A stretch of 64,000 bases of DNA, from the NCBI RefSeq assembly GCF_019977735.1, contig NZ_AP025018.1, positions 2,666,001 to 2,730,000 on the forward strand, read 5' to 3'. Both the position numbers and the translations under genes were made by a program. This DNA comes from Calothrix sp. PCC 7716 (GTDB taxonomy: Bacteria; Cyanobacteriota; Cyanobacteriia; Cyanobacteriales; Nostocaceae). The notes beneath the pieces are model-generated. The model saw only the letters and a program-made list of their open reading frames with translations, was not told where the DNA came from and ran no database searches. Positions 1-10,377 of this stretch are shown in pieces (the first letter of the stretch is position 1; each line of letters begins with the position of its first letter).

Positions 1-258
1 CCAAGCTTCTTCAAACTCTTCAATACTATTAAAGTCATCTGGTTCCGGTGGTTCATGCGAATCATCATAAAAGATGGTAAGTTGATCCGCTTCGCTTTTA
101 AAAGGTACTTCCCCAAAGTCCGCTTCTTTCCATTTCTCCTCTGTGTGTTCGGGGGCAATAATTTCTGTGTCCCAGCAGGGGTCATATATTGGTTTTGATG
201 ATATATGTGTACTGGGAGTCGAGGGAATTGAGAATAACGCTAATTGTTCAAATTCCAT
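1..258 (-). CDS. acidic hypothetical protein, C-terminus outside window
   Basis: The reading frame starts with ATG at 258 and is still open at base 1, giving 86 visible codons. The peptide begins MEFEQLALF, has a YDPCWD motif near residue 28 and becomes very rich in Asp and Glu, with no membrane segment. The start codon overlaps the stop of the upstream gene by one base (TAATG), which suggests translational coupling in the minus-strand arm of the accessory element. I do not recognise the family. The coupled position suggests a shared role with its neighbour, but nothing in the sequence defines that role. Confidence 0.6.
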   Translation of the reverse strand, partial: MEFEQLALFSIPSTPSTHISSKPIYDPCWDTEIIAPEHTEEKWKEADFGEVPFKSEADQLTIFYDDSHEPPEPDDFNSIEEFEEAW

Positions 259-461
259 TACTGATTCCCTCCCCTGGTAAATGTAACTATTTCATGGCGA
301 ACGAGATTGTTTGCTGTTTCTCGCATTGCTTCTGCCCAGGCTAGGGCAACGGTTGGGGGGAGTTGCTGTAAATCAGCCTCTGTAATAAAGCGCTGCTTAA
401 TCCAGTTTTTGAACAGTAACAATTGCCCTTTATCTATAAAGGAACTTCTGGAATAATTCAT
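258..461 (-). CDS. small hypothetical protein (67 aa)
   Basis: A 67-residue protein of mixed charge with no obvious membrane segment. Its middle (residues about 20-55) looks helical. It lies between the winged-helix protein gene (stop at 496) and the acidic gene whose start it overlaps by one base, so the three probably form one minus-strand transcript. The start codon ATG at 461 has only a weak purine-rich upstream stretch. No family recognised. Its support is the uninterrupted frame and the tight coupling with the next gene. Confidence 0.5.
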   Translation of the reverse strand: MNYSRSSFIDKGQLLLFKNWIKQRFITEADLQQLPPTVALAWAEAMRETANNLVRHEIVTFTRGGNQ

Positions 462-489
462 GACATTAATAACCTATGTTTTAGTTACT

Positions 490-511
490 CGCCCTTTATT
501 GGGCGTTTTTT
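490..511 (+). terminator. hairpin followed by T-run
   Basis: CGCCC (490-494) pairs with GGCG-type GGGCG (501-505) around a six-base loop and is followed by six T at 506-511. The T-run orients it as a plus-strand intrinsic terminator. It overlaps the last codons of the minus-strand gene ending at 496, so it may block antisense transcription. Confidence 0.45.
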
Positions 512-1257
512 GTTGGGTATATTTCGTCGTCTATGTATAAGTCGGTGTAAGTATCAAAGGTTAATATTACATCCATGTTTTCAAGTATCCATTGATTCTC
601 TAATTCCTCCCAGTAACGATGTCGTAAACACTGCACAAGCCAGCCAACCCTTCGAGCGATGACTTTCTTTTTACATTGAAATTTAAGTAACATCAATGCG
701 AGTTGCACCTCCTCAATTGAATAGCGATAAATATCACAGATTTCGGGAAGTTCTAACCCGGCTTCTTGGTTAACTAAATCCCTAATTTCATCCTTGGTTT
801 CTTTAGATACCTCCTCTATAGTCGGTAAAGAGTAAGACTGCTGCTGCGAAAGGGGGTTTTCAACTTTCTTAGACTCATCCCCTTTTTCAGCCTCTAAAGT
901 GGAATTATTTGTATTAGTTTGGAATGATTGTTTTTTAGGTGGTTTCAAGCAATCAAGCGGTCTAATTAGTAACTTAAATACGTGCCAACTGTACTGCTTT
1001 ACGATTTTAATAACTCCCAATTCTTCCAGCTTGGCGAACACTTGTTTTAAGTGGCGATTGCAGTATGGTTCGCCTCTTTTCTTTCCAACTAGCTGGTTAA
1101 AATCAATCAAATCGATTTCTACTTCTTTACCGATTCCACTATTTGTTACTAACCAGTACCATAATTGTTGTGCAGCACACTTAATTCCGAGTTTTAAACA
1201 GAATTCCTCATGCTCGTCTGTCCATTGGTTGATGAAATTTTTGATTGTTTTATGCAT
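496..1257 (-). CDS. winged-helix, replication-initiator-like protein
   Basis: 253 residues. Residues about 20-105 look like a winged-helix domain: helices around AAQQLWYWLV, then a second helix and a strand pair ending in a basic HVFKLLIRPL stretch. A Ser/Gln/Asn-rich linker covers about 110-150. A second helical domain at 155-235 contains two basic helices (KCQKKVIARRVGWLVQ-like). This N-terminal winged helix plus C-terminal helical domain resembles DnaD-like and plasmid or phage replication-organiser proteins; that is inference from architecture, not a confirmed family hit. It lies in the minus-strand arm of the accessory element with small genes on both sides, which fits a replication or control gene of a mobile element. 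The next upstream gene starts more than 200 bases away, across two hairpins. Confidence 0.55.
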   Translation of the reverse strand: MHKTIKNFINQWTDEHEEFCLKLGIKCAAQQLWYWLVTNSGIGKEVEIDLIDFNQLVGKKRGEPYCNRHLKQVFAKLEELGVIKIVKQYSWHVFKLLIRPLDCLKPPKKQSFQTNTNNSTLEAEKGDESKKVENPLSQQQSYSLPTIEEVSKETKDEIRDLVNQEAGLELPEICDIYRYSIEEVQLALMLLKFQCKKKVIARRVGWLVQCLRHRYWEELENQWILENMDVILTFDTYTDLYIDDEIYPTKNAQ

Positions 1258-1387
1258 AATAATAAGTAAATTAATTTGAAAAATAACAAAACCATTAAAG
1301 CTGTCGCTCTCCGGAATGCTTTTTGGTTTTTTTTATGGATGTGATAGGTTTTTATGTGTTCATTACATGCACCTCTTTTTTCTCTAG

Positions 1388-1408
1388 CCCTCACTGCGAG
1401 CGTGAGGG
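1388..1408. repeat. CCCTCAC/GTGAGGG hairpin, element-specific family
   Basis: Perfect 7-base arms CCCTCAC (1388-1394) and GTGAGGG (1402-1408) are separated by 7 bases. The same arms (six-base core CCTCAC/GTGAGG) recur twice at 2405-2486. In the plus direction ATTTT follows, so it may act as a weak terminator. Confidence 0.6.
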
Positions 1409-1445
1409 ATTTTGCTATAACTGTGATTGGTAATTTACGTAGTCC

Positions 1446-1477
1446 GCTCCTTCACGCCATGTAATGAAGGAGCTTTT
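1446..1477 (+). terminator. 9-bp hairpin with T-run
   Basis: GCTCCTTCA (1446-1454) and TGAAGGAGC (1465-1473) form a perfect 9-base stem with a 10-base loop, followed by TTTT on the plus strand. It sits just past the stop of the minus-strand gene ending at 1476, so it may serve as a two-way barrier. Confidence 0.5.
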
Positions 1478-1748
1478 AGCGTCTGTCTCGCTCTAAATCC
1501 CAAATTACTTTTTCTATATGCCACTTGGCGGTACGTCCTGGATGCACACTGCGGGACACCGATAATAATCGCTTCAAAGCATCTACGTCTCCTTGCAGCA
1601 TATTTAGTAATCGTGATTCAAGCTCATAAACTTCATCTGGGTAAGGTCTTTTTCTTCTCCTAGGTTTAAAGAAGTTTTCTATCTGCGGCGCCCATTTAGC
1701 AACAATGAGCGCTAGCGCTATTACACACAAAGTAATTAAACTGTTCAT
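1476..1748 (-). CDS. small single-pass membrane protein (90 aa)
   Basis: Residues 2-18 form one hydrophobic helix (LITLCVIALALIVAKW). A strongly basic patch follows (FKPRRRKRPYP, about residues 27-37), then a soluble helical tail rich in Leu, Arg and Asp. By the positive-inside rule, the tail should be cytoplasmic. It belongs to the minus-strand gene series of the accessory element, with hairpins on both sides. No family recognised. Small basic membrane anchors are common on plasmids and phages, but no function can be assigned. Confidence 0.5.
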   Translation of the reverse strand: MNSLITLCVIALALIVAKWAPQIENFFKPRRRKRPYPDEVYELESRLLNMLQGDVDALKRLLSVSRSVHPGRTAKWHIEKVIWDLERDRR

Positions 1749-1854
1749 AGGATTGATTTAGCAGGGATTATCAATCCAAAATGCAGGACTTTACCTTGAT
1801 AGGTCATCGGGAAAGTCCGCATTTTTTGAACTACGGGTTTTTGCGTACATAATA

Positions 1855-1886
1855 TAAACCGCTCCACCCGTAGGTAGAACGGTTTA
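1855..1886. terminator. hairpin containing a stop codon
   Basis: TAAACCG (1855-1861) pairs with CGGTTTA (1880-1886). The right arm contains the stop codon of the coiled-coil reading frame at 1884-1886. No strong T-run follows on either strand, so terminator function is uncertain. Confidence 0.3.
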
Positions 1887-2081
1887 CTCGTTATCTTCTA
1901 TTTCTGTTTCTTGTTGCTGGCTAGAGATTAAATTGTAAATTTCCTCTTTAACCTCTTTAACCGCTTCGCGAAACTCTTGTTCTTTCTCCTTGCTTTCACT
2001 AAGGCGAACTTCTAGCCGCTCCTGGTGAGACTTAACATATGAGATATAGGCGCCTTCGATAAATTCGAGACGCTCTAAGAT
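1884..2081 (-). CDS. coiled-coil extension in the -1 frame of the RHH gene
   Basis: 65 codons of highly charged helical sequence (ILERLEFIEG start, heptad-like Leu/Ile/Val spacing, acidic IEDNE end) lie in the -1 frame relative to the RHH gene. This frame has no ATG, GTG or TTG near its natural beginning. It joins the RHH frame exactly at G-GGA-AAA (2087-2081 on the minus strand), a canonical -1 slippery heptamer, just before the RHH stop at 2075-2077. Slippage would give a 129-residue RHH plus coiled-coil protein. Alternatives are a true frameshift mutation, a sequencing indel, or initiation at ATT. See findings. Confidence 0.5.
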   Translation of the reverse strand: MLERLEFIEGAYISYVKSHQERLEVRLSESKEKEQEFREAVKEVKEEIYNLISSQQQETEIEDNE

Positions 2082-2272
2082 TTTCCCAACAGGTGTTTCT
2101 CCGTAATCAATGGTTGCCCTAGAGGGACTTTGCCTTGAGCAATCAGCCTTATCAGCTCTGATCTGTTTACCCCCATTGATTGAGCCTGAGATTTGAACGT
2201 TTCCCAGTCCTTCTCGCTTATCCGGACTACTGCTCTTATTGAATCTTCCGCCAACTTCTTGGGTCTCGCCAT
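2075..2272 (-). CDS. ribbon-helix-helix (CopG/Arc-type) DNA-binding protein
   Basis: 65 residues. A basic N-terminus (MARPKKL) is followed by a beta-strand (AVVRIS, about 14-19), helix A (EKDWETFKSQAQ, about 20-31) and helix B after GVNRSELIRLI (34-44). This is the MetJ/Arc/CopG ribbon-helix-helix layout, in which the paired strands of a dimer read DNA. It lies just downstream of an array of GAACAAAAC iterons, which is typical of autoregulated repressors of toxin-antitoxin, plasmid copy-control or partition loci. The short frame stops two codons after a G-GGA-AAA slippery site, beyond which a coiled coil continues in the -1 frame. The RHH call is fairly safe; its partner and exact role are not known. 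Confidence 0.75.
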   Translation of the reverse strand: MARPKKLAEDSIRAVVRISEKDWETFKSQAQSMGVNRSELIRLIAQGKVPLGQPLITEKHLLGKS

Positions 2273-2309
2273 TTTTACAAATCACAACAACACCCTCATT
2301 GTATTGTAC

Positions 2310-2391
2310 GAACAAAACGTTTTGCATGAACAAAACCCTTGACAAGTTTTGTTCATCCATTATACTAACATTAGTTACGGATGAACAAAAC
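2310..2391. promoter_or_regulatory. iteron/operator array GAACAAAAC
   Basis: Four 9-base iterons occur: GAACAAAAC at 2310-2318, 2328-2336 and 2383-2391, and its complement GTTTTGTTC at 2346-2354. Two of them lie in a longer perfect inverted repeat, GTTTTGTTCATCC (2346-2358) and GGATGAACAAAAC (2379-2391), spaced 20 bases apart. The array is immediately upstream of the RHH gene, so autoregulation or a centromere-like partition site is the natural reading (inference). Confidence 0.65.
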
Positions 2392-2404
2392 AATTTAGCT
2401 CCCT

Positions 2405-2486
2405 CCTCACATTGCCAACGTGCCCGTGAGGTTTACCAATTAATCAGGAGCGTGACCCCTCACACTTGCCACAGTGCCCAGTGAGG
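2405..2486. repeat. two tandem CCTCAC/GTGAGG hairpins
   Basis: Hairpins at 2405-2431 and 2458-2486 share identical arms (CCTCAC, GTGAGG) and near-identical loops (TTGCCA, GTGCCC). The same arms recur at 1388-1408. They lie between the two divergent gene arms, next to the iterons, so they may be origin, leader or terminator structures. Confidence 0.6.
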
Positions 2487-2842
2487 AAACAACCTAAAAG
2501 TTAATAAAAATTGGCGCCGTTTATCGTTTCAAGTGGCGTAGTTAAGCTTTGCTGTTTAGTAAGGAGGCTATTTAAAGCTCGAAACCTAGATTGTTGAAAC
2601 TCTCTAATTTCCCAACTACCCGTTAACGAGACTTTTACCGTTTGTCTCGTTGACATTTTCTACACTGTCAAAAAGCAAGGAGTGCAGTGTGTTGCCTTGT
2701 CAATAACTGTTTAGTAAAGGAGCGTGCCTATAAAGTAGAACGCACATCATTTGTCGTGCATTAATGAATTTATTATCAAATGTCAGGTGGGGCTAAAACC
2801 TGGCATTTCCTCCCAGTGTCTACTTATTTCAACAACGTAAAA
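2487..2842. other. gene-free control region between divergent arms
   Basis: No convincing gene. It holds a perfect 8-base hairpin, AACGAGAC (2625-2632) with GTCTCGTT (2644-2651), and a direct repeat CTGTTTAGTAAGGAG at 2552-2566 and 2707-2722 (one extra A in the second copy). Together with the iterons and the CCTCAC hairpins this 500-base zone looks like the control or origin region of the element. Confidence 0.45.
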
Positions 2843-3019
2843 ATGAAACCAATTCAACCTGAAGTTATTAAACCTTGGGCAGTGTTTATCCTGGACTCCA
2901 AAGGCTCCAGAACACGCATTGCTAGCTTTTCTACCCGTAGTGATGGCGAGACTTACTTATTTAAAATCCGTCGCCAATTGCCAAAAGCGAGTGACCCAGT
3001 TTTAGCATTTGATAGGTAG
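2843..3019 (+). CDS. small cyanobacterial protein, W-A...F.sR.D family
   Basis: 58 residues from ATG 2843; an earlier in-frame ATG at 2780 would add 21 residues that look non-coding. The core WAVFILDS...RIASFSTRSDGETYLFKIRRQLP...LAFDR shares its pattern with the separate 75-residue protein at 29925-30152 (WAIARM...IVARFRSRSDADGHMQLLLRVTP...LVFDC). Both have Trp-Ala at the start, an Arg-x-x-x-Phe-x-(S/T)RSD centre and end in FD. The predicted fold is a small alpha/beta domain. Function is unknown. This is the first gene of the plus-strand arm of the element. Confidence 0.55.
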   Translation: MKPIQPEVIKPWAVFILDSKGSRTRIASFSTRSDGETYLFKIRRQLPKASDPVLAFDR

Positions 3020-3073
3020 GGTTAAATAGCCGTTTCATCAGGATGTATCTACTTTTGTTCTGCAGCATAACTT

Positions 3074-3319
3074 ATGAAATATACAGGTGTCAGTTACAAA
3101 AGAGTCAAAAATTTGGGCAACTACGAAAGTGAACATTTAGAACTGTTCGCTGATATTGACTCTGACGAAAACGTGGATGACGCGGTTGATGCTTTGAAAA
3201 AAAAAGTTAAAGCACTGCTAGGTGTAGATGAAGTCGTCAAACCATCGACTTTACCGCCTCCACCTAAGCAGATGCCCGTTAAACCCGCGATAAAAGAAGA
3301 AGGTGAAATAGATTTTTAA
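3074..3319 (+). CDS. small acidic hypothetical protein (81 aa)
   Basis: 81 residues. The N-terminal half reads like a beta-rich strand set (YTGVSYKRVKNLGNYESEHLELFADI), followed by an acidic helix (SDENVDDAVDALKKKVKALL) and a proline-rich tail ending in EEGEIDF. The pattern of an aromatic strand then a conserved ALKxKVxALLG helix is seen in small plasmid- and phage-encoded cyanobacterial proteins, but I cannot name the family. The next gene starts two bases after its stop, so they are probably co-transcribed and coupled. Confidence 0.55.
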   Translation: MKYTGVSYKRVKNLGNYESEHLELFADIDSDENVDDAVDALKKKVKALLGVDEVVKPSTLPPPPKQMPVKPAIKEEGEIDF

Positions 3320-3321
3320 GT

Positions 3322-3987
3322 ATGACCAAACACGATACAGTTGTACGTATTAAACCCGGTTCCCCCTACGAAAGCGCACTTTCATTATTTGAAGATGGCT
3401 TTATACCGATGCGTGACCCTTTCCCAATGGAACGTGGTGTATCCGATACAGGCGAAGTAACTTCGTTATGGGTAACTGATTGGGACAGGATGAACGAAGA
3501 ACAAATACAAGCTCTCGCTGCTGCAATTGCTAACCACTGCGGTGCAACAAGAGAAGAAGTTATTGAAGATGCTCGCCCAAGTAACGGTTTCGGGATTCGT
3601 GATGGTTGGATAGAGAAAATGCACTGCGGTGCTGAAGGGTTTCAGCGATGTAAAGAGGTCGCTGATTTTTTAAAAAATGCACCCCAACCACCTACAGCAG
3701 AAGCTTATCAAGATTTTTACCAAGACCAGTACAGACGCTGGATTGATGGCGACGAACAGCCACCACCAATGCCTAAAACTATTGAGGGTTTCGACCCAAG
3801 GTTAGTAACACCCGAACTTGAAGAAGCTTTAAAAAAAGAGCAAATCGCTAAAGCTTTGGCAGGGTATTCGGTGCTTGATGTTATAACTGGGCGGGCAATG
3901 GTGGACATTCTTAATAACATCGACCCTGACCACAACTACAGCATAGTTACTGATGAAGATGACGATGAAGATAACATCCCTTGGTAA
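3322..3987 (+). CDS. hypothetical accessory-element protein (221 aa)
   Basis: 221 residues, soluble and acidic. Visible parts are an N-terminal segment with FEDGFIPMRDPFPM, a helical segment MNEEQIQALAAAIANHCGATREEVIEDA (about 58-85), a central GFGIRDGWIEKMHCGAEGFQRCKEVADFL region with two cysteines, and a helical C-terminus ending DEDDDEDNIPW. The ATREEVIED segment is typical of short helix-turn-helix folds, but no catalytic motif is evident. Two bases separate it from the preceding gene. No recognised family; likely an element-specific protein. Confidence 0.55.
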   Translation: MTKHDTVVRIKPGSPYESALSLFEDGFIPMRDPFPMERGVSDTGEVTSLWVTDWDRMNEEQIQALAAAIANHCGATREEVIEDARPSNGFGIRDGWIEKMHCGAEGFQRCKEVADFLKNAPQPPTAEAYQDFYQDQYRRWIDGDEQPPPMPKTIEGFDPRLVTPELEEALKKEQIAKALAGYSVLDVITGRAMVDILNNIDPDHNYSIVTDEDDDEDNIPW

Positions 3988-4009
3988 TTTACGAGCAACA
4001 TCAATAATT

Positions 4010-4231
4010 ATGGAAACCAGCAACAATAGATTTGTGACAATACCAACACCTGACCCAAGTTGGGACTATTACCAGCTTTGGCATACTTTGCAGTTAATAA
4101 AATCTGATTTAGATTCCTCAATAAAGCTGTTAAGTGAAACTGAGGAAAATAATGATTATACAGGCGAAATGGTCAATAGTTCGCTTCATAGAATTGATGC
4201 ACTTGTAGAGAAAGCGAAAGGAGAAATTTAG
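4010..4231 (+). CDS. small helical hypothetical protein (73 aa)
   Basis: 73 residues from ATG 4010, chosen because the longer frame from 3953 would overlap the previous gene by 35 bases in poor context. The N-terminus contains PTPDPSWDYYQLWHTLQLI; the rest is an amphipathic helix rich in Ser, Glu and Lys. The stop codon TAG (4229-4231) abuts the hammerhead-like RNA core that begins at 4233, so the mRNA of this small operon would run directly into that RNA. Function unknown. Confidence 0.5.
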   Translation: METSNNRFVTIPTPDPSWDYYQLWHTLQLIKSDLDSSIKLLSETEENNDYTGEMVNSSLHRIDALVEKAKGEI

Positions 4232-4359
4232 CCTGATGAGCTAGTGTAACCCCACTAGCGAAACGGGTTAAATCAGCAGTAAAGAGCGTAACTCACGTGA
4301 TGAATATTGCTAACTGAAGCAATGATGCATAGGCTGATTGTAAGTTGCGCTTACCCGTA
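4231..4359 (+). ncRNA. hammerhead-ribozyme-like RNA
   Basis: The conserved core is present in order. CTGATGA (4233-4239) is followed by a perfect 7-bp stem II, GCTAGTG (4240-4246) with CACTAGC (4253-4259), around loop TAACCC. Then come GAA (4260-4262) and stem III, ACGGGT (4263-4268) with ACCCGT (4353-4358), whose last T is followed by A4359. This gives the GTA form of the GUH cleavage triplet. Stem III encloses 84 bases with another 7-bp stem, AATCAGC (4271-4277) with GCTGATT (4333-4339), and a 5-bp hairpin, ATTGC (4306-4310) with GCAAT (4319-4323). Stem I is weak: only GC (4231-4232) with GC (4360-4361). Self-cleavage after 4359 is therefore plausible but unproven. It lies between a small gene and the IS110-type recombinase. 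Confidence 0.55.
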
Positions 4360-4565
4360 GCGACTTGGGTTAAAAACGCTCGTCGCCAGTATCAATAAAA
4401 GTAATTTAGGGCTTTGATACAGAAGCAAGCTAAGGCTTTTAGGTTTTCGCAAGCTCGGTTACTAATTGATGCTGTTACCTGCTGTCTTGAGAGTGAATTA
4501 AGCTTCGGCTTTTTGGTGGTTCGTAGACTTTCAAGCGGGTTTATTGATGCGACTGTAAACACCAC
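4360..4565 (+). ncRNA. structured leader of IS110-type gene, candidate bridge RNA
   Basis: This non-coding stretch holds a hairpin GCGAC (4360-4364)/GTCGC (4382-4386) and a 7-bp hairpin GTATCAA (4389-4395)/TTGATAC (4414-4420) with an 18-base loop. The loop of the first contains ACGCTC (4376-4381), fully complementary to GAGCGT (4284-4289) upstream, so a pseudoknot is possible. A short AAGC-TTCG-GCTT hairpin with T-run lies near 4500-4515. IS110-group elements are known to encode a guide (bridge) RNA in the non-coding part upstream of the recombinase, and the large-loop hairpin is the kind of module expected. The match is positional and structural, not by sequence. Confidence 0.35.
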
Positions 4566-5762
4566 ATGGAAAACAAAATCAAAATATTGGGGCTTGATGT
4601 CAGCAAGTCCACAGTTTCTGCATGTCTTTTAACTGAAAAGCCAGACGAACCACGTCTATTTTATTACGATTGTCAGTTCTTAAACTTGTCAGCCAATAAA
4701 GAAGGTATAGAAAAATTACTAAGTTTAAAGCCTGATGTGGCAGTAATGGAACCAACGGGAACTAATTACAGCAAAATCTGGAAGGAACATTTAGTAAAAG
4801 CTGGCGTAAAAGTTGTATTTGTGGGGCACAAGCAACTGCGTAACTACCGTGCTGACCACCTTGACTTACCTGATAAAGATGATAATGCCGATTCTTTAGC
4901 GCTTGCTTGCTACTGGTTTGACTATCATCATTTAGAAAATCGATTTGTTGCTAGACATTCAGATGTTATTAACAACATCCGAGAGCTAATACTGAGGTTG
5001 GAACATCTTAACCGCGTGCAATCGCCAATCATTAACCGCTTACGTCAAGACTTGGCGTGGCAGTTTCCAGAAGCTGCGTTGATAAATTCAAAGCGTGGTA
5101 AAAAAGGACTAGCTCCTCTTTTGTGGGGGTGGATTGCTGGATTGCGCGACTCTAAAAAGTACGATGCAATGTACAAAGACAGTATCGGTACTGGCTTGGA
5201 ACAATCTACACGTAACCAAGCATTCCTAATTTGTGACTTGCAGCAGCAAGAATTTGCAATAGAAATCAAGCTATCAAACTTACTCAAAGAGTCGTGTTTT
5301 GCTCCCTACTACAAAGTTTTTAACAAATTTGGTTTTGGTTCTCGCTTATCAACGATTCTCGTTGCCTACATTTACCCGCTAGAGAATTTCCTCAAAGACG
5401 GGAAGCCAGAAATTAGGATTTGCAGAGGTCGAAAATCCGGTAAACCTACCAAACGCTACATTTCACTACGTCGGTTTCAGAAAACTTTAGGCATGGCGCC
5501 ATCACAAGAACAATCAGGAGACAAGAAAAAAGTTAAAGTTCGCCACGGCTCAAAACTATGTCGAAAAGCCTTGTGGCAGTGGGTGTTTACTGCATTAGAA
5601 CCCAAGAAACGGCGCCTTAACAATGAAATAACCGAAATACTTTGTGCTTACCTTGATGCCGAAAAGGCTAGCGGTAAACCTGTTCGGTTAGTACGTTCTC
5701 GTGTTGCAGTTCGCGCGGTTAAGCTGTTGTTTCGGGAGTTAGTAAAAGAATTATGCAATTAA
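4566..5762 (+). CDS. IS110-family DEDD/serine recombinase (transposase)
   Basis: 398 residues. The N-terminal RuvC-like DEDD domain shows D11 (ILGLDVSKS), E62 (VMEPTG), and D106 and D109 in KDDNADSLALA. The C-terminal Transposase_20 domain has the catalytic serine S317 in EQSGD. In the known family, the DEDD domain and the serine together carry out RNA-guided recombination without terminal inverted repeats. The spacer between domains (about 120-280) is roughly 70 residues longer than in short IS110 proteins such as IS621. It has a 334-base structured non-coding leader, and its 3' end overlaps the next gene by 10 bases. That coupling makes it look like part of an element operon rather than a simple insertion sequence. 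The element ends cannot be fixed from the sequence. Confidence 0.85.
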   Translation: MENKIKILGLDVSKSTVSACLLTEKPDEPRLFYYDCQFLNLSANKEGIEKLLSLKPDVAVMEPTGTNYSKIWKEHLVKAGVKVVFVGHKQLRNYRADHLDLPDKDDNADSLALACYWFDYHHLENRFVARHSDVINNIRELILRLEHLNRVQSPIINRLRQDLAWQFPEAALINSKRGKKGLAPLLWGWIAGLRDSKKYDAMYKDSIGTGLEQSTRNQAFLICDLQQQEFAIEIKLSNLLKESCFAPYYKVFNKFGFGSRLSTILVAYIYPLENFLKDGKPEIRICRGRKSGKPTKRYISLRRFQKTLGMAPSQEQSGDKKKVKVRHGSKLCRKALWQWVFTALEPKKRRLNNEITEILCAYLDAEKASGKPVRLVRSRVAVRAVKLLFRELVKELCN

Positions 5763-5977
5763 AAGTTTTACCTACAGATGTCAATTTCACTATGTCTCGT
5801 GATGCGGGTCCTGGATGTTTATGCTCCAGGTGCTTACTACCAATAATCAGTGATATGCCGATTCGGATATTTCCTGAAAGTGGAAAATGTGAGTTTCGTT
5901 ATCATCCTAAATGCCTGGGTGCAGAAACGTGTCCTAATAATGACTGGGGCGAGAATTTTGAGAACCTACCTTACTAA
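5753..5977 (+). CDS. small zinc-binding protein (74 aa)
   Basis: 74 residues starting inside the recombinase gene (10-base overlap). A zinc-ribbon-like Cys/His set is visible: C22 x C24 x2 C27 and later CEFRYHPKCLG with a Cys, His and Cys, plus one more Cys at ETC. The pattern CxxC-PI-x-PIR-x-E-Y-HPxC resembles small zinc-ribbon proteins of phages and plasmids. The overlap with the recombinase suggests coupled expression and perhaps a partner role (inference). No enzymatic motif. Confidence 0.55.
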   Translation: MQLKVLPTDVNFTMSRDAGPGCLCSRCLLPIISDMPIRIFPESGKCEFRYHPKCLGAETCPNNDWGENFENLPY

Positions 5978-5984
5978 ATATTGC

Positions 5985-6057
5985 TCCCTCGCATAACTCA
6001 CATGAGGGAAAACGTTTTCTTAGAGTGAAAAACCTCAGCCCAATAAAGGACTGAGGT
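5985..6057 (+). terminator. two hairpins closing the plus-strand arm
   Basis: TCCCTC (5985-5990) pairs with GAGGGA (6004-6009), and ACCTCAG (6032-6038) with CTGAGGT (6051-6057). Neither has a long T-run. They lie directly after the last plus-strand gene and before the convergent minus-strand genes, which fits a transcription end. Confidence 0.45.
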
Positions 6058-6157
6058 CAAAAGTTTAATCAGGGTGCATCTACTAATCTCTGTATCCACT
6101 ATGGTCAATTACATATCAGGACAAAATCAAACCGTTTGAACCAAGAATATAAAATTG

Positions 6158-8419: not shown

Positions 8420-9730
8420 ATGCAACAACCAATTCACGTTATCGGAGGTGGACTAGCTGGAACTGAGGCAGCTTGGCAAATAGCTACTGCTGGTATACCA
8501 GTAGTTTTACATGAAATGCGCCCGCAACGTTTCGGCGGCGCCCATCATACTGAACATCTCGCCGAATTGGTTTGTAGTAATTCGTTTGGGGCAATGGCAA
8601 GTGATAGAGCATCGGGTTTATTGCACGAAGAGTTACGGCGCCTTGGTTCTATCGTAATTGCAAAAGCAGACGAACACCAAGTTCCCGCAGGTGGCGCCTT
8701 AGCTGTTGATAGAGGACAATTTAGCGAAGATTTAACAAATACCCTCGCACAACATCCTTTAATTGAACTGCGACGAGGTGAAAGTCCTAATATTCCTGAA
8801 GGTATTGTTGTTATTGCCAGTGGTCCTTTAACGAGTCCTGAGCTTGCAGAAGATTTGCGTCGTTTTACAGGAATGGAGTATCTTAGTTTTTTTGATGCTG
8901 CAAGTCCTATAATTGTGGGAGAATCAATAAATCGGGATATTGCTTTTATGGCTTCGCGCTACGACAAAGGCGAAGCCGCTTACCTAAACTGTCCAATGAA
9001 TAAGGAACAGTATATTCGGTTTAGAGAAGAACTTTGCAAAGCCGAACAAACCGAGTTGAAAGATTTTGACAGAGAAAAAGTTAAGTTTTTTGAAGCTTGT
9101 TTACCAATCGAAGAACTAGCACTGCGCGGAGAAGATACCATGCGCTATGGTCCCCTCAAACCAGTAGGGTTATCTGATACCCGTACAGGCGAACGTTCTT
9201 ACGCAGTTATTCAACTACGTCAAGAAGACAAGCAAGGCAAGTTATGGAATATGGTAGGGTTCCAAACTAACTTACGTTGGGGCGAGCAAAAACGTATTTT
9301 CCAAATGATACCTGGTTTAGAAAATGCCGAATTTGTACGTTTAGGCGTCATGCACCGCAACACATTTATTAACGCTCCCCAATTAATGCATCAAACACTG
9401 CAATTCAAAGAACATCCAAATATATTAGCCGCAGGTCAAATAATTGGTACCGAAGGATACACAGCAGCATCCGCAGGTGGTTGGCTAGCTGGAACAAATG
9501 CCGCACGTGTTGCATTAGGTAAACAACCTGTAACACTACCAACTACAACAATGATGGGCGCCTTATTTGAATTCATCAGTACCGCATCACCCAAACACTT
9601 CCAACCCATGCCACCCAACTTCGGAATATTACCCGATTTAGGCGTAAAAATTAAAAGCAAACCAGAACGATACGGAAAATATCGCGACAGGTCATTGCAA
9701 GATTTAGAAAACTGGAAGGGTTTACTATAA
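8420..9730 (+). CDS. trmFO: methylenetetrahydrofolate-tRNA-(uracil-5-)-methyltransferase
   Basis: 436 residues, full family length. The N-terminal FAD-binding Rossmann motif is [16 protein letters not shown] (residues 5-20). The block [10 protein letters not shown] contains Cys52, equivalent to one active-site cysteine, and [10 protein letters not shown] contains the second conserved cysteine region. The [16 protein letters not shown] block near residue 340 is characteristic of TrmFO. The enzyme makes 5-methyluridine at position 54 of tRNA using folate and FADH2 in the cytoplasm. It is a single gene; the upstream 360 bases contain only dispersed repeats. Confidence 0.97.
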
Positions 9731-10041
9731 TTTCTTCTTGTGGAACAGGCATCCCTGCCTGTCCTGTATAAACTTTTATTAACATCTAAATAAATCATAA
9801 TCAAAATGATCATGACTTGCAACGATTTTGGGATTCGGATTTCTCTCTTTGTGCAATCTCTGACTATATAGTAAAAATAATTACATATAGCCACAGGCAA
9901 GGATGCCTGTGCTACAACAAGATATAACAAGATATAAAAAGATATAACAAGATATAAAATGAGAAGTCCCTAGGGGTATGATGTTGCCCCTAGGGTGGTG
10001 TTGTAAACGTGATAATTTTTCAATTGCTGTTGTGGTAGTGA
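9731..10041. repeat. ACAGGCATCCCTGCCTGT-type repeats and AAGATATAAC tandem array
   Basis: An imperfect palindrome (GGAACAGGCATCCCTGCCTG) lies at 9740-9763 and a related inverted version (CCACAGGCAAGGATGCCTGTG) at 9890-9912. At 9915-9958 the unit AAGATATAAC(A) is repeated four times. The same bacterial interspersed palindrome occurs at 17764, 24272, 36781 and 60461. No gene seen. Confidence 0.6.
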
Positions 10042-10377
10042 TTATTGAGCTTTCTTTTTATCTTGCTTTTTACCAATAAATCCGAAGTCATCTTCTTTCA
10101 TAGTAATCATACCGTGTACACCGAGGGCTGCAATTGCGGCGCCGATAAATCCCCAAGTGCCATCGGTAAAAGCATTGATGCGGTGTGATAAGCTGCGGTG
10201 ATAAGCAAAATCGAGTTGTCGAGTACTGCCGTTACCATCGCGCGCAAGTCTTTCGATGTAGTCTTCAGTTCGTTCTAAAGCGTTATAATCAACATCGAAA
10301 GCATAAAGTGATGACCCCATGACAATTAAGCCGGGAATCACAAGTGCGATTAAAAGTATGCCTCTGCCTGAATTCAT
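10042..10377 (-). CDS. conserved small membrane protein (111 aa)
   Basis: Two predicted membrane helices are visible: ILLIALVIPGLIVMGSSLYAF (about 6-27) and WGFIGAAIAALGVHGMI (about 74-91). Between them is a hydrophilic loop with the AFDVDYNALERTEDYIERLARDGN segment and a His-rich SHRINAF. The C-terminus is basic (KKQDKKKAQ) and should be cytoplasmic. I do not know a function; it looks like a thylakoid or plasma-membrane protein of unknown role. The strand is opposite to trmFO and the M23 gene, and it stands alone. Confidence 0.65.
   Translation of the reverse strand: MNSGRGILLIALVIPGLIVMGSSLYAFDVDYNALERTEDYIERLARDGNGSTRQLDFAYHRSLSHRINAFTDGTWGFIGAAIAALGVHGMITMKEDDFGFIGKKQDKKKAQ

Follow-up and report, generated by a model that had tools for sequence, protein, structure and literature searches.

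Passages of PMC11208160 describe that transcription of the bridge RNA of canonical IS110 elements starts from a promoter formed where the element ends are joined. For the hammerhead ribozymes of bacteria and phages, passages of PMC3088659 report pseudoknots joining stems I and II in ∼40% of representatives and state that these matter for cleavage speed. The nearest precedent for the combination described here, as far as one section of a 2026 preprint goes (PMC13142463), are the VIPR guide arrays, in which hammerheads are interspersed and which, according to that section, were confirmed by small-RNA sequencing. Here, we analyzed a stretch of 64,000 nucleotides (nt) of Calothrix sp. PCC 7716 (contig NZ_AP025018.1, positions 2,666,001 to 2,730,000; the whole stretch is termed the window herein), which holds a predicted hammerhead ribozyme, a bridge RNA, and an IS110-type recombinase gene within one integrated element. 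The reading we favor, with a probability of about 0.78, is that a pseudoknot-stabilized type I hammerhead at the 5′ border of the bridge RNA frees the bridge RNA together with the recombinase message from a longer transcript, thereby setting their 5′ end.

The motif (positions 4231 to 4361, plus strand) has the type I arrangement. Stem I comprises 2 bp (4231-4232 with 4360-4361) and is followed by CUGAUGA (CTGATGA in the DNA; 4233-4239), a 7-bp stem II (4240-4246 with 4253-4259), GAA (4260-4262), and a 6-bp stem III that includes the A15.1-U16.1 pair (4263-4268 with 4353-4358) and is closed by an 84-nt insert (4269-4352). H17 is A4359, and the predicted cut falls between 4359 and 4360. These pieces, in this order and pairing, had been listed in an initial annotation made from the sequence alone, and every one of them was found. 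A feature absent from that annotation is a predicted pseudoknot: loop II (UAACCC, 4247-4252) can form six Watson-Crick pairs with GGGUUA at 4367-4372, 8 to 13 nt past the cut, a pairing that is among the longest in the set of related loci described below. A hammerhead descriptor (CTGANGA, stem II of at least 5 bp, GAAA, stem III of at least 5 bp, UH, and stem I of at least 2 bp) matched once across both strands of the window and not at all in 300 dinucleotide shuffles, in line with the earlier estimate that the chance of such a set in 64 kb is far below one. The motif is real and not a chance match.

Relatives of the recombinase were found at 67 loci in many cyanobacteria. The comparison was made with 54 loci, namely, 52 of these 67, the window, and a paralogous locus of the same genome (L069); the 15 loci left out were a duplicate of L002 (L003), one at a contig edge (L032), and 13 that matched only in part or lay at contig edges. 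Of the 54 loci, 50 have the full core (CUGANGA, a stem, GAA, a second stem opening with A15.1-U16.1, GUH, and a short stem that closes it), 217 to 362 nt upstream of the recombinase start. H17 is C in 44 of these 50 loci, A in 6, and never G. The variable core position is position 7 (CUGA[U/C/A]GA), which is free in hammerheads and is also the "n" of CUGAnGA in passages of PMC10085705, and 11 loci have one additional base between the core and stem II. The 2-bp stem I of the window, which the initial annotation regarded as odd, is indeed that short but is not odd for the family: stem I has 2 to 6 bp, most often 4 (commonly CCGC/GCGG), with only 2 bp in five loci besides the window, and the predicted pseudoknot would compensate for its shortness.

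The helices were assessed by counting Watson-Crick cells. Among 42 to 43 distinct sequences, 198 of 210 cells in stem II and 250 of 258 in stem III were Watson-Crick, compared to shuffled maxima of 155 and 172, respectively. Stem I, with 148 of its 172 cells Watson-Crick against a mean of 140.8 and a maximum of 146 upon shuffling, is little informative because it hardly varies. In an alignment of 34 loci (A2), the covariation score was 0.574, compared to 0.162 upon shuffling (0/500) and at most 0.122 with the partners slid; a weaker measure, the number of pairs with changes on both sides, gave 14 of 22 pairs against a shuffled mean of 10.9 and was reached by 9 of 500 shuffles, with stem I contributing such changes in 2 of its 4 pairs. 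Conservation by compensatory change is thus strongly supported for stems II and III and weakly for stem I. Loop II and the strand ∼8 to 12 nt past the cut pair over a mean of 4.57 bp in 42 distinct loop pairs (shuffled mean, 3.43; 0/2,000), with 3 of the 42 reaching only 2 bp and 4 only 3 bp, and one pseudoknot column pair of A2 is occupied by UA in 15 loci, CG in 12, AU in 2, UG in 2, GC in 1, and other combinations in 2. This argues for an interaction, in terms of base pairing only, between loop II and the 3′ strand next to stem I. Judged from sequence, the core, the compensatory changes, and the H17 rule all fit a hammerhead, and the lack of conservation in homologous loci that the initial annotation had named as evidence against one was not observed.

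The Rfam search that it had also suggested turned out differently. Rfam hammerhead models gave no match in the window at the gathering score, none on 3900-4700 up to an E value of 10, and none at the gathering score in the 18 related loci searched; L020 scored 13.2 bits with Hammerhead_3, for which the threshold is 48.5. These models fail to recognize this hammerhead subtype; matching them helps to detect hammerheads but does not define one. A covariance model of the ribozyme was built from A2. Of 291 genomes sampled from the order, 47 had a match to it (E value of ≤0.01), as did 29 of 386 sampled from the phylum (E value of ≤0.001). A recombinase follows on the same strand in 27 of 30 loci taken from the search of the order, in two cases as short pieces (L101 and L114); of the three others, L110 and L117 end soon after the ribozyme, and L123 is an orphan. 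A recombinase is likewise present at 8 of 10 further loci found by the model, some of which were picked as odd-looking; these sets of loci overlap the first one (L109 is L069). The model detected no ribozyme in 14 of the 15 left-out loci (L003 was outside that search). On the minus strand of L114 (928-1576), two hammerheads lie in tandem with a small open reading frame (ORF) between them, and the second leads to a bridge RNA and a briefly matching recombinase start.

The extent of the integrated element was obtained from empty sites in two relatives (L079 and L080). The element spans C1 2657237-2672028 (14,792 bp). By comparison with the empty sites, its right end, TAGAGTGA, is at 6021-6028 (plus strand), and the left end precedes the window start by 8,764 bases, so that the element covers window −8763 to 6028 (L090 11237-20000 together with window 1-6028). 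The sequence at the empty site is CTACAGAAAACCTC, and that of the left flank in the window genome is TATACAGAA. Twelve elements with both ends measure 10.1 to 17.2 kb, with a doubtful right end in L146 and two possible left ends in L129, and their ends lie at GAA cores adjoining TCCCC and TAGAGT. For the element ends, 13 of 20 regions were used; left out were L135 (a copy of L134), L141 and L142 (cut by contig ends), and L137, L138, L144, and L145 (other or unclear cores). Neither L134 nor L139 yielded a left end. The bridge RNA lies 8.7 to 15.6 kb from the left end in related elements and ∼13 kb in the window element. The window element is not a canonical short IS110 insertion sequence with the bridge RNA next to an end. 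The empty sites, which place the left end ∼13 kb away, led us to reject the ribozyme as the left boundary of a small insertion sequence.

The RNA after the predicted cut (4360-4565, plus strand) is the bridge RNA and, at the same time, the 5′ leader of the message for the recombinase. A consensus fold of 16 loci from the cut to the start codon has two bulged loops and 33 pairs, 12 of which show compensatory change, and each loop contains one variable stretch before GAA and one before TTC. In the window, the left target guide GATACAGAA (4416-4424, plus strand) includes ATACAGAA, which equals the left flank of the inserted element, and the right target guide AGGTTTTC (4441-4448, plus strand) is reverse complementary to GAAAACCT, which is found at the empty site of the two relatives. 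The two target guides thus spell ATACAGAA and GAAAACCT. The right flank in the window has one extra A relative to the empty site and therefore scores 3/5. Across the 37 of 54 loci with the right-end motif TAGAGTGAA and a parsed guide, the right target guide is the reverse complement of the right flank at a mean of 3.84 of 5 free positions, with 19 perfect matches, compared to a mean of 1.45 and 0.57 perfect matches in shuffled pairings, none of which reached the observed value (0/10,000). Scores of 0 to 5 were seen in 2, 3, 3, 2, 8, and 19 loci, respectively. In a separate step, the guides assigned to L069, L002, and L006 were manually corrected. The left target guide was compared in the 14 loci with ∼16 kb of upstream sequence (including the copy L135), 11 of which have the left-end motif GAATCCCC; all 11 match the left flank at 5 to 6 of 6 positions (mean, 5.27; shuffled, 2.34; 0/10,000). 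Among 13 elements, the right guide matches at 4 to 5 of 5 positions in 10 and failed or is doubtful in L139, L146, and L147.

The second loop carries the putative donor guides. The left donor guide TTGAGAGTGAA (4487-4497, plus strand) copies the element right end CTTAGAGTGAA at 9 of 11 positions in the window and at 8 to 9 of 11 in 13 loci, a comparison of observed counts only, in which L011 is misaligned; in L010, a changed right end is mirrored by the same change in the donor guide. The right donor guide GGTGGTTC (4515-4522, plus strand) is partly complementary to the element left end GAACCCC (GAACC), and the match to the left end is partial only (GAACC or GAATC). In the distant members L137 and L138, the guide loops seem, by eye, to have a TAA or GTA core instead of GAA. 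The target guides match the insertion site, which identifies the RNA between the cut site and the recombinase as a bridge RNA.

The initial annotation had placed the ribozyme between upstream small genes and the recombinase and had suggested that it splits their messages or trims a guide RNA. The comparison supports this interpretation, with the ribozyme bordering, on the 5′ side, a guide RNA identified as a bridge RNA by the match to its own insertion sites. In the window, a small ORF (3953-4231, plus strand; supported by the ORF list and the locus comparison) ends with a UAG stop (4229-4231) 1 nt before CUGAUGA. An ORF of at least 50 amino acids ends within −9 to +12 nt of CTGANGA in 30 of 47 loci, compared to 5.1% (at most 12.2%) at control anchors, and in 8 loci it stops at the UGA inside CUGANGA. 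Since these ORFs abut the ribozyme, the 30 loci have no intergenic room for a promoter; a promoter inside the upstream ORF is possible, and one sigma-70-like match lies at 3981-4008, with 3 matches in the region compared to 7.4 in shuffles. A promoter formed by joined ends would not lie just upstream of the bridge RNA because the left end is too far away. Because the ORFs abut the ribozyme and the left end lies ∼13 kb off, we infer that the bridge RNA is cotranscribed with upstream genes and then cut out.

According to the proposed mechanism, a single transcript started upstream would run from the cargo genes across the ribozyme and the bridge RNA into the recombinase gene. The ribozyme would fold, loop II would pair with the strand just past the cut, and the RNA would cut itself after A4359, leaving the cargo message with a 2′,3′-cyclic phosphate and giving the bridge RNA and the recombinase message a 5′-OH end at G4360, which would be their functional 5′ end. 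The freed 5′ strand would then fold into the 5′ hairpin of the bridge RNA. The strand that partners loop II in the pseudoknot is also part of a covarying hairpin past the cut, in which 78.7% of cells are paired; pseudoknot and hairpin partly exclude each other because the same strand serves both.

The abutting ORFs could also be taken to mean that the ribozyme serves mainly messages, splitting the cargo from the recombinase mRNA and lowering or tuning the recombinase, while the 5′ end of the bridge RNA comes from an internal promoter or a nuclease. The recombinase starts 166 to 303 nt past the cut, which means that its message would be cut as well. We nevertheless consider this explanation unlikely, as the cut falls at the start of the conserved bridge RNA, 21 to 52 nt (median, 44; 47 loci) upstream of the motif opening the target guide, and the strand behind it acts both as pseudoknot partner and as 5′ hairpin. 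In addition, in 6 of 16 locus pairs, the main DNA match begins within 10 nt of CTGANGA and the preceding sequence differs or is displaced, indicating that the ribozyme stays with the bridge RNA. That same boundary would be expected if the structure acted as folded single-stranded DNA, similar to integron attC sites, and marked a point of cargo exchange, the hammerhead appearance being secondary. Such a hairpin would have no reason to keep CUGANGA, GAAA, and GUH in all 50 motif loci, and the element ends lie elsewhere, at the GAA cores next to TCCCC and TAGAGT, so that we regard this explanation as very improbable; since ends and guides lie elsewhere, we also rejected, as the principal explanation, that the ribozyme is an integron-like site.

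Several observations weigh against the release of the bridge RNA by a hammerhead. The ribozyme is missing in 4 of the 54 relatives (L043, L044, L053, and L056) and is therefore not indispensable; L043 retains a hairpin resembling the one after the ribozyme, without the core. Conversely, ribozymes of the same model occur without a recombinase match at L123 (1501-1574), L156 (1715-1782), and, weakly, L152. We take the surroundings of L123 to resemble Mu-type prophage genes. No ORF of at least 50 amino acids ends within the −9 to +12 nt range in 17 of the 47 loci, and the right guide matches at no more than 2 of 5 positions in 8 of the 37 loci. The best fold calculated with ViennaRNA, a program that cannot form pseudoknots, shows the full hammerhead pairing in none of the 50 loci and at least 80% of its pairs in 4, and the pair probability of the inner pair of stem I does not exceed 0.26 in any of the 50. 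The core of the window copy would be occupied by an alternative helix of 10 bp (4226-4235 with 4264-4273), and this copy scores 26.4 bits in the covariance model, compared to 46 to 83 bits for the other 15 matches.

Because this helix would tie up the core, the window copy may be weak, switched, or decaying. Its stem III with loop measures 96 nt, compared to 76 nt in L009 and 17 to 28 nt in the remaining 48 loci. The long stem III noted as odd in the initial annotation is thus present, as an 84-nt insert, and is a trait of only two of the 50 loci, the window and L009, the latter with a comparable insert of 64 nt. Compared by eye, stem III opens with ACGGGTYAARTYAGCRGTAAAG in both the window (4269-4352) and L009 (4670-4813), and L149 has a structured insert, apparently in stem II, at 110-226. 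Decay of the window copy, with cutting lost here and kept in the family, is suggested by the 2-bp stem I, the insert, the stronger alternative helix, and the low model score, and we rate it as a less probable but serious prospect: the core bases are all intact, the six-pair pseudoknot is among the longest, and a 2-bp stem I recurs in five other loci. As the window copy is untypical, our confidence is higher for the family than for the activity of this copy.

More tentatively, and at slightly less than even odds, self-cleavage might be the maturation step of the bridge RNA that lets an IS110 recombinase act as the integrase of 10- to 17-kb elements with phage-type genes without a joined-end promoter, and a ribosome finishing the upstream gene might gate the cut and thereby couple translation of the cargo to production of the guide. 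The gating, which is a guess, was proposed because the stop codon of the upstream gene is often in contact with the ribozyme or even within it (CUGA); where the stop is the UGA inside CUGANGA, the terminating ribosome would cover the core.

The recombinase (398 amino acids, 4566-5762, plus strand) has the RuvC-like DEDD domain and the Tnp domain with its serine that are expected of the IS110 family (Pfam PF01548 and PF02371). Residues D11, D103, D106, D109, and S317 are invariant in 18 sequences, and E62 is conserved in 17; the acidic residues and Ser317 are probably the catalytic ones. An AlphaFold2 (AF2) model had a mean confidence (pLDDT) of 89.4, and in a PDB fold search, the eight best matches were IS621 and ISCro4 (best E value, 3.1e-10), followed by TIGR-TasR; the best match had a template modeling (TM) score of 0.71 by target length and 0.56 by query. 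PDB sequence searches with the recombinase and with profile A4 gave no match. The paralogous locus L069 encodes a recombinase that is 77% identical and has the same order of parts as the window, but it differs in a short stem III, a 4-bp stem I, and another target, and its DNA matches that of the window only from 4357 on, with different genes preceding this point. A small ORF overlapping the recombinase end (5753-5977, plus strand) has a similar sequence following the recombinase in L069. The recombinase is likely the integrase of the 14.8-kb cyanobacterial integrative element.

Searches of 20 window-element proteins against Pfam or PHROGs matched the IS110 recombinase, a tyrosine recombinase, a 2-oxoglutarate (2OG) oxygenase, and an amidase/endolysin, and 16 of the 20 had no match in either. 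A similar recombinase of ∼195 amino acids, together with a relative of the 272-amino-acid protein of the window element (28 to 34% identity), is present in L131, L136, and L146; in L143, what we take to be a serine recombinase stands in its place, and an apparent pair of what are presumably IS607-type TnpA and TnpB genes lies inside that element (positions 8459-10218). A long low-complexity or repetitive protein is encoded in the window element and in all four others read (L131, L136, L143, and L146). The structure model of the 272-amino-acid protein was of insufficient quality (pLDDT, 49.8) and was not used. Searches of viral contigs with the recombinase gave no confirmed case, and phage records had no match to the recombinase or to the 272-amino-acid protein. 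Among 72,556 plasmid records, 2 carry the recombinase, and one element resides on a named plasmid (CP150887.1), whose annotation calls the recombinase a transposase. At the right end of the window element, Rfam NsiR1 (nitrogen stress-induced RNA 1) matches at 6024-6085 on the minus strand (40.6 bits; cutoff, 39), and several relatives contain more than one copy of the ∼100 bases that begin at 6028; because of these two observations, the element may be located within an array of NsiR1 repeats.

The initial annotation knew of no described coupling of a hammerhead to an IS110-type gene, and we found no report in open-licence papers of a hammerhead paired with IS110, a bridge RNA, or a cyanobacterial transposase. 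The word "hammerhead" does not occur in PMC11208160 and PMC11187229, the main text of PMC3088659 contains no occurrence of "transposase," "recombinase," or "cyanobacter," and PMC4524478, the one paper found to contain both "hammerhead ribozyme" and "IS110," treats the two separately in the passages concerned. Recombinases guided by bridge RNAs attract interest as tools for programmable DNA insertion. If the proposed mechanism is true, it would show how a guide whose 5′ end is defined can be obtained from a longer transcript, far from the element ends; it would also show IS110 enzymes associated with 10- to 17-kb elements and widen the possible roles of hammerheads.

Set beside the bacterial and phage hammerheads in the passages of PMC3088659, the motif shares the core, the three helices, and the GUH cut, but differs in that the predicted pseudoknot partner lies in the 5′ end of the bridge RNA itself. 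With IS621, as described in parts of PMC11208160 and PMC11208158, the family shares the DEDD recombinase, the target and donor loops, and target guides that match the insertion site; unlike IS621, it forms 10- to 17-kb elements whose bridge RNA is remote from the left end and preceded by a ribozyme. Engineered guides (described in part of PMC12643982) likewise use a 5′ hammerhead to free a guide RNA from a longer transcript, but they are man-made CRISPR guides to which a 3′ hepatitis delta virus (HDV) ribozyme was added. The VIPR arrays resemble the window in placing a natural hammerhead between guide RNAs of an RNA-guided DNA-recognition system and differ in that they are vrRNA arrays with no bridge RNA, the section of PMC13142463 concerned describing neither a recombinase nor integration.
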